Source: Alishewanella agri BL06 (GTDB taxonomy: Bacteria; Pseudomonadota; Gammaproteobacteria; Enterobacterales; Alteromonadaceae). Taken from it: a DNA stretch of 64,000 nucleotides. This document shows positions 2,424 through 4,636 of this stretch, piece after piece (the stretch's first letter is position 1; every line of letters begins with the position of its first letter). Position numbers and translations under genes: made by a program. The notes under the pieces are model-generated. The model had not been told where the DNA came from. It saw only the letters and a list, made by a program, of their open reading frames with translations, and searched no databases. The DNA lies in assembly GCF_000272005.1 (NCBI RefSeq), contig NZ_AKKU01000021.1, forward strand, positions 27,570-91,569. The letters are read 5' to 3'.

Positions 2424-3047
2424 ATGATTAGACCATTAACGCCACGTCAGGCAGAAATTCTGCAACTGATTAAAGATTATCAAAGTGAAACCGGGATGCC
2501 GCCAACCCGCGCTGAGATTGCTGTGCGTCTGGGTTTTAAATCGGCGAATGCCGCCGAAGAGCATTTAAAAGCGTTGGCAAAAAAAGGCGTGATTGCGATG
2601 TTGCCCGGTACGTCCAGAGGGATCCGGCTGATTGAAGATGACACTGCACCGGAACAGTTGGGATTACCCTTAATCGGTAAGGTCGCTGCTGGTCAGCCGA
2701 TTTTAGCGGCAGAACATGTACAGGATCACTATCAGATTGATGCAAACCTGTTTAAGCCGCATGCGGATTTCCTGCTACGGGTGCAAGGGATGAGTATGCA
2801 GGATATCGGCATTCTGGATGGTGATTTACTGGCCGTACATAAAACACATCAGGCGCAGCCTGGGCAAGTGATCGTGGCCCGCGTTGATGACGAAGTCACC
2901 GTGAAACGTTTTCAGCGCGATGGCCATCAAGTATTGTTGTTACCGGAAAATCCGGATTTTCAGGTGATAAAAGTCGATTTACGGCAGCAGCATTTCGCCG
3001 TGGAAGGCCTGGCAGTTGGCGTGATCCGTAACGGCAGCTGGTTATAA
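2424..3047 (+). CDS. lexA: SOS repressor LexA
   Basis: A 207-residue repressor and self-cleaving peptidase of the SOS response. The N-terminal winged helix-turn-helix (about residues 1-70) contains [11 protein letters not shown] and [16 protein letters not shown], nearly identical to E. coli. The cleavage site is Ala89-Gly90 in VAAGQP. The S24 peptidase half carries the nucleophile Ser124 in GMSMQDIG and the general base Lys161 in DDEVTVKRF, and the protein ends with the conserved [10 protein letters not shown]. Length matches the family (E. coli 202). Two SOS boxes overlap its promoter and start, so it should repress itself. The gene stands alone and is divergent from plsB. Confidence 0.98.
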
Positions 3048-3078
3048 TTCCACCTGTTCTCAATAAGTTATTTTCCCC

Positions 3079-3117
3079 AAAGCACTGGTATGACCATTTG
3101 GTTTTATCGGTGCTTTT
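3079..3117 (+). terminator. Possible lexA terminator
   Basis: AAAGCAC (3079-3085) and GTGCTTTT (3110-3117) can pair around a 24-base loop that itself contains TGGT/ACCA, 32 bases after the lexA stop. The T run is short, so this is a weak candidate. Confidence 0.35.
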
Positions 3118-3285
3118 GCATTTTAGGGGTTTACATAATTCAATTCCTGGACAATTCTTAGACGGTAGCTGGTGAAAAAATAACAACAGGTGTGCCACTA
3201 CTGATTTCAGCGCTAGCCTCGAAATCAACCCAAAAAACAATAACAAGAATAAAATTGCGAAACTTATTTACCCAATAGCATTGAC

Positions 3286-3392
3286 GATGCGGGTAGGCGG
3301 CAACTGAATGCATCCTCAGGAACATAGTAGTCCTATGTGACTGGGGTAAGTGAAGGCAGCTAACACCCCCGTATCTTCAAGGAAGAAGGGTA
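3286..3392 (+). ncRNA. Structured leader element upstream of coxB (candidate cis-acting RNA)
   Basis: The 443-base gap between lexA and coxB holds no convincing gene but does hold a foldable element. A closing helix pairs 3286-3293 with 3368-3375 (eight pairs, one G-T). Inside it, CCTCAG (3314-3319) pairs with CTGGGG (3341-3346), then a symmetric GA/GA internal loop (3320-3321 and 3339-3340), then ACATAG (3322-3327) pairs with CTATGT (3333-3338) around a five-base loop. An alternative helix GGGGT (3343-3347) with ACCCC (3365-3369) excludes both. The 3' part to about 3392 is purine-rich. It does not match the conserved cores of the c-di-GMP, TPP, cobalamin, glycine or ZTP riboswitches as I know them. 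Folding was done by eye. Confidence 0.5.
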
Positions 3393-3490
3393 TAGCACAT
3401 AGATTCGGTTGGGTGGGTAGTAAAAAAACCGTGTAGTTCTGTGTACTTAGTTTCTGCAATTTGCTTTGCAAATGACAGAGGAGAAGTACA

Positions 3491-4636
3491 GTGACAAACG
3501 CGCGTTGTCTGCTTTGGTCGCTGCCGACCCTGCTTTTTGCCGCATCGGCAAACGCATCAAAATCCATGCCTTTAAATATGACCAAAGGCGCCACTGAAAT
3601 CAGTCAGCAGGTTTACGACCTGCATATGACCATATTTTGGATTTGCTGTGTTATCGGTGCTGTGGTGTTTGGGATCATGTTCTGGTCCATCATTCGCCAT
3701 CGTAAAGCCAGGGGAGTGCAGCCAGCTCAGTTCCATGAGAGCACTAAGGTTGAAATTCTATGGACTGCCATTCCGGTAGTCATCCTGATCGGTATGGCGA
3801 TTCCCGCGACTAAAACCCTGATTGCGATGGAGGATACCTCTGCGGCAGATGTCACGGTATTGGTGACTGGCTCGCAGTGGAAGTGGCATTACAAATACCT
3901 GGAACATGACCTGGAGTATTTCTCACTGCTGGCCACCCCGCGCGAACAAATCGCAAACAAATTAGCGAAAGGTGAAAACTACCTGCTGGAAGTTGACCGG
4001 CCGCTGGTGATTCCAACCGGTAAAAAAGTGCGTTTTCTGATGACCTCGGATGATGTGATTCACTCCTGGTGGGTACCTGCCTTTGCCATAAAAAAAGATG
4101 CCAATCCTGGCTTTATTAACGAAGCCTGGACCCGGGTCGATGAACCGGGCATTTATCGTGGGCAATGTGCCGAGTTGTGCGGTAAAGACCACGGCTTTAT
4201 GCCAGTGGTGGTGATTGCCAAGACCCCCGAAGATTATCTGGCATGGGTGGCACAGGAAGAGAGCCGGATCGCTGCCGAAAAAGCGGCCGAGCGCGAATTG
4301 CTGGCGATGAATATGGATATGGCGGAGCTGATGGCAACCGGTGAAAAAGTTTATCAAGGTTGGTGTGTCGCTTGCCATCAACCGACTGGTGGTGGCTTAC
4401 CCGGTATCTTTCCGGCGCTGAAAGGCAGTCAGTTAATTTTGAATGACCGCCAGGCGCACATTGAAATCATCGTCAACGGCAAGGCTGGTACCGCAATGCA
4501 GGCTTTTGGCAAACAGCTGAGTTTAAAAGAGTTGGCGGCGGTTATTACTTACACCCGTAACGCTTTTGACAATAACACCGGGGATGCCGTGCAAGCTGCC
4601 GATGTCTACGCCGTACAGCAGGGCAAGGGAGAATAA
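3491..4636 (+). CDS. coxB: Cytochrome c oxidase subunit II with fused cytochrome c domain (caa3 type)
   Basis: This 381-residue protein starts at a GTG preceded by AGAGGAGAAG. A signal peptide (about 1-22) is followed by two membrane helices (about 47-68 and 89-108). The periplasmic CuA domain has ligands His191, Cys226, Glu228, Cys230, His234 and Met237 (QCAELCGKDHGFM). A C-terminal class I cytochrome c domain follows with haem motif CVACH at 292-296 and a likely axial Met near 337. It accepts electrons from a soluble cytochrome c or donor and passes them via CuA to subunit I. It is the first gene of the oxidase locus, three bases ahead of coxA, behind a structured leader. Confidence 0.97.
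   Translation: MTNARCLLWSLPTLLFAASANASKSMPLNMTKGATEISQQVYDLHMTIFWICCVIGAVVFGIMFWSIIRHRKARGVQPAQFHESTKVEILWTAIPVVILIGMAIPATKTLIAMEDTSAADVTVLVTGSQWKWHYKYLEHDLEYFSLLATPREQIANKLAKGENYLLEVDRPLVIPTGKKVRFLMTSDDVIHSWWVPAFAIKKDANPGFINEAWTRVDEPGIYRGQCAELCGKDHGFMPVVVIAKTPEDYLAWVAQEESRIAAEKAAERELLAMNMDMAELMATGEKVYQGWCVACHQPTGGGLPGIFPALKGSQLILNDRQAHIEIIVNGKAGTAMQAFGKQLSLKELAAVITYTRNAFDNNTGDAVQAADVYAVQQGKGE

Follow-up and report, generated by a model that had tools for sequence, protein, structure and literature searches.

An ERIC repeat within a conserved coxB leader predicted to switch Shine-Dalgarno exposure

Does the structured sequence that precedes the cytochrome oxidase gene coxB in Alishewanella agri BL06 belong to that gene, or is it a mobile repeat that came to rest there? 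We analysed a stretch of 64,000 nucleotides (the window; NCBI RefSeq assembly GCF_000272005.1, contig NZ_AKKU01000021.1, positions 27,570 to 91,569) in which 443 bases separate lexA from coxB, whose product is assigned by Pfam as cytochrome c oxidase subunit II with a C-terminal cytochrome c domain. An earlier note had read positions 3286-3392 as a coxB-specific sensor RNA, composed of two nested helices and a third helix competing with both, with a dispersed intergenic element as its fallback. The features concerned are as follows.

2424-3047, + strand: lexA, the upstream neighbour (LexA_DNA_bind and Peptidase_S24).
3286-3293/3368-3375, + strand: outer helix of the earlier note, 8/8 pairs; the inner part of the ERIC dyad described below.
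3314-3346, + strand: hairpin of the earlier note; the ERIC central hairpin, its loop side overlapping the ERIC-PCR primer sites.
3491-4636, + strand: coxB, with a GTG start (Pfam COX2, COX2_TM and Cytochrome_CBB3).

All of the helices that had been described are present at these positions and fully paired. The hairpin forms 12/12 pairs (3314-3319/3341-3346 and 3322-3327/3333-3338) around a symmetric GA/GA loop (3320-3321 and 3339-3340), and the competing helix (3343-3347/3365-3369) forms 5/5 pairs in the window sequence. The fold of 3280-3400 (121 nt) is computed at -39.5 kcal/mol against a shuffle mean of -31.3 (z -2.23), an only moderate advantage over chance, with 6/200 shuffles folding as well or better.

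By its sequence, the element that contains these helices is a copy of the ERIC repeat.

3267-3394, + strand: ERIC/IRU element, 128 bp, TTTACCC...GGGTATA; encloses all of the helices above.

In an Rfam search the model V_AS5 (RF02818, Vibrio RNA AS5) matched 3266-3390 on the + strand over its full length (E 3.7e-9), yet with 49 bits where the curated gathering cut-off is 96 bits. The same model gave 95.3 bits and 46.4 bits (the latter for the ybhJ-ybhI copy) to two ERIC copies of E. coli, one of which carries both ERIC-PCR primer sequences exactly, and the window element and the E. coli ERIC both match model positions 1-129. The joined ERIC-PCR primer sequence is present in 5375 of 5426 E. coli genomes. 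Rfam lists V_AS5 as an antisense RNA gene, yet because it matches both canonical E. coli ERIC and dispersed multicopy repeats, it appears in fact to be a model of the ERIC repeat, and we flag RF02818 as such; a literature search on V_AS5 yielded nothing useful. Where the earlier note had recognised no riboswitch core, Rfam 15 likewise returned no riboswitch or leader family at E ≤ 5 in 2500-4500, this sub-threshold V_AS5 match being the sole exception, and none at gathering level in the window.

Direct comparison leads to the same assignment. The E. coli ybhJ-ybhI ERIC aligns end to end with the window element, and an E. coli copy is 75.4% identical over 88% of the window-element query (in an E. 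coli sequence search at E ≤ 10, a place covering at least 80% of the query was found in 2 genomes only). The ERIC-PCR primer sites (primer letters from PMC3696847) are diverged but in place, with 14/22 matches to ERIC1R as its reverse complement and 16/22 to ERIC2. The ends differ from TATACCC...GGGTATA by one mismatch, at the left; among 59 aligned copies (window copy included), 35 have the exact TATACCC start and 24 the exact GGGTATA end, and the flanks of these copies are unrelated to each other. The closest copies to the window ERIC, at 85% identity, sit in two genomes of the same genus. ERIC (IRU, RU-1, MITEEc1; in Photorhabdus MITEPlu5) measures 127 bp against 128 bp here, and the two have in common TATACCC...GGGTATA-type ends, a central primer-homologous hairpin, an intergenic and dispersed distribution, and a terminal TA. 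The accessible text of an ERIC review names Enterobacteriaceae and Vibrionaceae, whereas the window element lies in an Alteromonadaceae-type genome.

A BLAST search of its own genome places the element at a single real position, itself (next best E 0.311). Among 60 related genomes (own included), V_AS5 at E ≤ 0.001 finds matches in 29 (26 of the 31 same-genus genomes plus three more), with up to 18 copies in one genome; the E. coli control was also positive with this model. A sample of the order gave V_AS5 matches in 26/148 genomes and 14/66 genera. At 38 ERIC loci with longer flanks, 0/38 copies fall inside a called ORF of at least 100 aa (crude calls), and relative to the copy the neighbouring genes run both forward in 16 cases, both reverse in 12 and mixed in 5 and 5. 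Head-to-tail ERIC-type copies are also seen in other genomes, two in a row at G004:C11:34466-34711 and three at G174:C5:8899-9281.

Covariation was examined in alignment A2, which keeps 49 ERIC rows out of the 59 aligned, 10 near-duplicates or rows with extra sequence being omitted. Together the two nested helices are paired in 90.6% of cells, with 10/20 pairs changed on both sides (0/500 shuffles). The outer helix contributes most of this (91.6% paired cells; 7/8 pairs changed on both sides) and the central hairpin the rest (89.9%; 3/12), one hairpin pair (alignment columns 53/76) being formed in only 3/49 copies. The covariation that the earlier note had proposed as a check on these helices is thus found, but across a dispersed repeat and not specifically at coxB, as would be expected of a conserved dyad element. 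Because a mobile repeat imports a ready-made covarying fold, covariation among its copies is no evidence of local regulation. The competing helix is paired at shuffle level over the ERIC copies (66.9% vs 67.2%), with no compensatory change, and we discard it as a regulatory switch on account of this lack of conservation.

The history of the insertion can be read from relatives. A coxB search yielded 31 same-genus genomes (30 loci aligned, the 31st read separately), whose lexA-coxB intervals comprise 1 with a full ERIC (the window genome), 2 with decayed right ends and 28 that are empty. The two remnants, of ~36 bp from the ERIC right end, occur in the genomes with the closest CoxB (93%), and the empty site in the three nearest empty relatives reads GAAACTTA-N-CACATAG. 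From this distribution of one full copy, two remnants and 28 empty intervals, we infer a recent insertion: ERIC was acquired by a common ancestor of three species and is by now decaying. With the element a dispersed ERIC copy, and the orthologous leaders empty (28/31) or decayed (2), the proposal of a coxB-specific sensor at 3286-3392 falls; it is the fallback, a dispersed intergenic element, that holds, with ERIC as its family.

3265-3266, no strand: TA at the left junction, paired with TA 3393-3394; putative, from comparison with the empty sites of relatives.

TA stands on either side of ERIC, and the left side has two bases more than a clean TA duplication; TA 3265-3266 and TA 3393-3394 are a possible target-site duplication.

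The more general idea of a switch-like RNA with exclusive helices in the coxB leader fails for ERIC and finds support in the native sequence on either side (3253-3264 and 3397-3490).

3253-3264, + strand: P1 5' strand AATTGCGAAACT, core GAAACT 3259-3264; pairs with 3449-3461.
3397-3444, + strand: P2 domain, ACATAG 3397-3402 with CTGTGT 3439-3444, 6/6 pairs.
3449-3461, + strand: P1 3' strand AGTTTCTGCAATT, which doubles as the strand pairing with the Shine-Dalgarno region (the anti-SD strand).
3451-3481, + strand: P3, the Shine-Dalgarno-hiding hairpin, 3451-3456/3476-3481 and 3460-3464/3468-3472.
3477-3483, + strand: Shine-Dalgarno (SD) sequence AGAGGAG of coxB, identical in the 30 aligned same-genus leaders.

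P1 joins sequence upstream of P2 to the anti-SD strand, and in the window it forms 6/6 core and 6/6 outer pairs with one bulged base. The P2 helix encloses a lineage-variable loop, and its motif CATRG/CTRTG is also found in Shewanella, Ferrimonas and Alkalimonas leaders. In P3 the upstream anti-SD strand binds the Shine-Dalgarno region CAGAGGAG; this hairpin belongs to the inverted repeat I1 (3442-3464/3468-3490) and is present in the minimum free energy fold, although the plain fold of 3393-3510 is unexceptional (z -1.11). Since both use the same anti-SD strand, P1 and P3 are mutually exclusive, and they overlap in the window sequence (3449-3454 and 3451-3456, respectively). ERIC sits in the P1-P2 junction, with the P1 5' strand upstream and P2 (3397) downstream, and the pairs of P1, P2 and P3 are all intact in the window genome despite it.

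Mean pairwise identity over 28 same-genus sequences, computed with our own flanks joined across ERIC and the two remnant rows omitted, is 0.93 at 3445-3490, 0.77 at 3395-3444 and 0.80 at 3252-3266, against 0.48 at coxB fourfold sites; on this measure the native coxB leader is under strong conservation. Three smaller observations concern the same interval. In one same-genus clade (L047-L053, L055) the P2 loop is longer by ~20 nt. A hairpin TGATTTC...GAAATCA at 3202-3227 reads GGTTTC...GAAACC or GGCTTC...GAAGCC in relatives, changes that look compensatory by eye. Just past lexA, an inverted repeat whose 3' side is T-rich (3079-3116), conserved in the genus, is likely the lexA terminator, though a scan gave no call.

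How far does this leader extend beyond the genus? Model R1, built from 30 same-genus leaders, matches the window at 3396-3490 (E 1.8e-18); the complementary strand of this palindrome also gives a weak match (E 0.02). It matches 10/147 genomes of the family, six of the same genus and four of one other genus, these four all preceding coxB. At E ≤ 1 it matches 19 of 80 named coxB loci, every one on the coding strand and just 5' of coxB, in Rheinheimera, Arsukibacterium, Alkalimonas (8.2e-6) and 12/13 Shewanella (0.0081-0.31). Model R2, for which ten leaders, all from Shewanella, served as training set, matches 42/98 sources at E ≤ 1, all before coxB: 13 Shewanella (10 used in training and 3 sequence-identical to training rows) and 29 others, including Ferrimonas (E 2.4e-7 and 3e-7) and the window (E 0.0098). 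Over 295 genomes of the order, R2 finds 22 genomes in three genera, with one place each and 22/22 before coxB; at E ≤ 0.001 it misses both same-genus genomes of that sample. The weaker R2 matches to Rheinheimera-like leaders, such as that of the window (E 0.0098), depend mostly on the SD hairpin. The R2 alignment A6 threads Rheinheimera-like rows unlike the proposed P1 and is fitted to the structure, and we therefore set aside its counts over mixed genera (0/500) as evidence. The genus labels of some relatives were taken from their nearest named CoxB neighbours. By eye, Idiomarina-type coxB leaders (L134, L135, L150) also seem to hide the SD in a hairpin, of unrelated sequence.

We found no description of a coxB leader RNA in the literature searched: 'cox' and 'cytochrome' are absent from the main text of the Shewanella cis-RNA paper PMC2659441, and PMC2864571 mentions neither coxB nor cytochrome c oxidase. 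Eight related coxB loci gave no Rfam match at E ≤ 5 except a chance one to sR32.

Inside the genus the leader is too conserved for a covariation test, with 0/21 predicted pairs compensated in alignment A1 and 1/11 in A7, a value that 46/500 shuffles reach. MAFFT alignments between genera (A3, A4) misplaced the 5' part and were not used for counting pairs. The P1 core was compared directly between groups. It reads GAAGAG/CTCTTC in Shewanella-type leaders (24/31 rows), GGGAGC/GCTCTT and variants in Ferrimonas, GAAATG/CGTTTC in Alkalimonas and its sister genus (5/5) and GAAACT/AGTTTC in the genus of the window (14/27 rows), in a table of 66 parsed leaders out of 69 (among the 66, two Shewanella rows and one Rheinheimera-like row are misparsed, and the g38 leader L228 is counted with Shewanella). 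Because these core registers were chosen by us, duplex energies in free register provide the fair test of P1. With 20-nt flanks, the own partners of six representatives are equalled by 3/720 relabellings, and with seven representatives 18/5040 relabellings equal the own pairing, the representatives being anchored by hand. Own-species P1 duplexes are stronger than cross-genus duplexes in 5/5 groups (mean -11.42 vs -8.13 kcal/mol; one row, L048, is misanchored), and the SD helix has no such species-specific pairing (own -10.47 vs cross-genus -10.43 kcal/mol).

A further 22 leaders outside the R2 training set (20 distinct, and aligned to R2) have P1 100% paired with 4/6 pairs changed on both sides. 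Over all helices they have 10/22 pairs changed on both sides (0/500 shuffles), and slid versions are 33.6-66.1% paired, in an alignment (A9) that is itself fitted to the structure under test. The ten R2 training rows alone give 4/22 pairs (18/500 shuffles). Taken together, these comparisons of leaders show P1 to covary between genera. A short upstream ORF noticed by eye in Shewanella leaders was dropped, its TTG being TTA in some species.

The reading that we prefer, with a probability of roughly 0.7, is that 3267-3394 is an ERIC inserted in the junction of a conserved coxB leader predicted to switch SD exposure. We infer that the leader is transcribed, folds as drawn and acts at the level of translation. 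In the SD-free state, P1 (3253-3264 with 3449-3461) and P2 would hold the anti-SD strand; in the SD-hidden state, this strand would pair with the Shine-Dalgarno sequence as P3, and coxB translation would be blocked. Translational riboswitches and other SD-sequestering leaders form the general class with which such an arrangement is to be compared. Like its members, the native coxB leader has a P1-like helix excluding an SD-hiding hairpin before the start codon; it differs from them in matching no Rfam family. At the sequence level it thus has the two exclusive helices of a translational switch, one of them hiding the SD, and both states were computed.

The SD-hidden state is computed to be the more stable in 14/17 natural leaders of the genus. 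With that state usually favoured, the P1 state would therefore need a ligand, a protein or co-transcriptional order. Being self-complementary, ERIC would form an extra arm of the RNA between P1 and P2, so that P1 would not be destroyed; it may weaken the leader switch or add a nuclease site. The SD-hidden advantage of the window leader is 7.0 or 3.0 kcal/mol depending on the stretch folded, and 1.3 with ERIC removed and the flanks joined. In 14 empty relatives the same gap runs from -1.6 to 5.0 kcal/mol, three of them favouring P1. Since the predicted cost is small and within this natural spread, no effect of ERIC can be claimed from the energies. As a tentative extension, which we would back at well below even odds, an undescribed class of translational leader would govern the A-type oxidase in Shewanella, Ferrimonas, Rheinheimera-like genera and Alkalimonas, with a P1/P2 sensor set against the SD hairpin, a respiratory signal (plausibly haem, copper or a dedicated protein) and, in the window, ERIC in the P1-P2 junction.

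Several other explanations deserve consideration. The leader could be no switch at all, the SD hairpin serving as a constitutive damper of translation or as the target of a protein or an sRNA, with P1 a by-product. The SD strand is indeed conserved without species-specific pairing, covariation within the genus is slight and the SD-hidden state is usually favoured; between genera, however, P1 does covary, and in the groups examined the P1 3' strand shares bases with the anti-SD strand, which leads us to consider this account unlikely, though a serious one. Conservation of the leader could also reflect promoter or regulator sites in the DNA and not an RNA. The accessible part of PMC4728554 reports predicted RpoS, PrrA and Fnr sites for Shewanella oneidensis cox, and an upstream block in our locus (3121-3177) is likewise conserved among the same-genus sequences (0.79). 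Conservation peaks, however, in the 46 nt that immediately precede the start codon (0.93), and compensatory changes are seen in P1, so that DNA sites are an improbable explanation.

We regard it as quite improbable that the ERIC hairpin has itself been co-opted as a coxB regulator in this lineage, for instance as a site of RNase processing or mRNA stability. ERIC would supply a stable sense-orientation hairpin within the predicted coxB transcript, and reviews, in their accessible text, describe Yersinia ERICs that, when in one orientation, provide an RNase E site and thereby alter how stable the co-transcribed mRNA is. The Yersinia effect so described concerns transcripts upstream of ERIC, however, and depends on orientation, and only ~36 bp of the element is left in the two nearest relatives, with none in the other 28. 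Finally, a ligand-sensing riboswitch for coxB at 3286-3392, for which its helices and their covariation among ERIC copies might speak, is scarcely credible and in effect refuted because 28/31 orthologous sites are empty, in addition to the dispersal of the family and the unconserved competing helix.

The preferred reading, an ERIC within a native switch-like leader, removes a false riboswitch lead at 3286-3392 and moves attention to the leader around it. According to the accessible part of PMC4728554, detection of the A-type oxidase of S. oneidensis was limited to stationary cells that were starved of carbon and highly aerated, and an RNA element for cox is not mentioned there. As coxB opens an oxidase operon with such restricted expression in S. 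oneidensis, translational control via the switch-like leader is directly testable.

As to how ERIC may move, we searched eight genomes for the end pattern common to the copies. Among the matches listed is a 1.1-kb element of another genome with the ends TATACCCATCCCACTTCAAGATGCAG and TATACCCGTGATCAATGAAGATGC, which encodes a transposase of the IS630 family (NCBIfam NF033545, 231 bits against a cut-off of 100).

About 200-1300 of locus L113, reverse strand: IS630-family element with TATACCC ends that resemble ERIC ends.

IS630 elements of this kind are ~1.1 kb long and have a transposase, whereas ERIC has no gene; the element is a candidate autonomous partner of ERIC, which was probably mobilised in trans by a transposase of the IS630 family. 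The likeness has been published already: in its accessible text, PMC6267812 reports for Photorhabdus that an ERIC-related repeat resembles CCC-type IS630 ends, and that the ends of IS630 sequences with TATACCC termini (e.g. ISPlu3/8/19) resemble those of ERIC. The IS630 ends found here are support for that likeness and not a discovery. Repeats of ~270 bp with TATACCC...GGGTATA ends were also seen in two other genomes (L114-L116, L117, L119), one of them enlarged by an internal insert.
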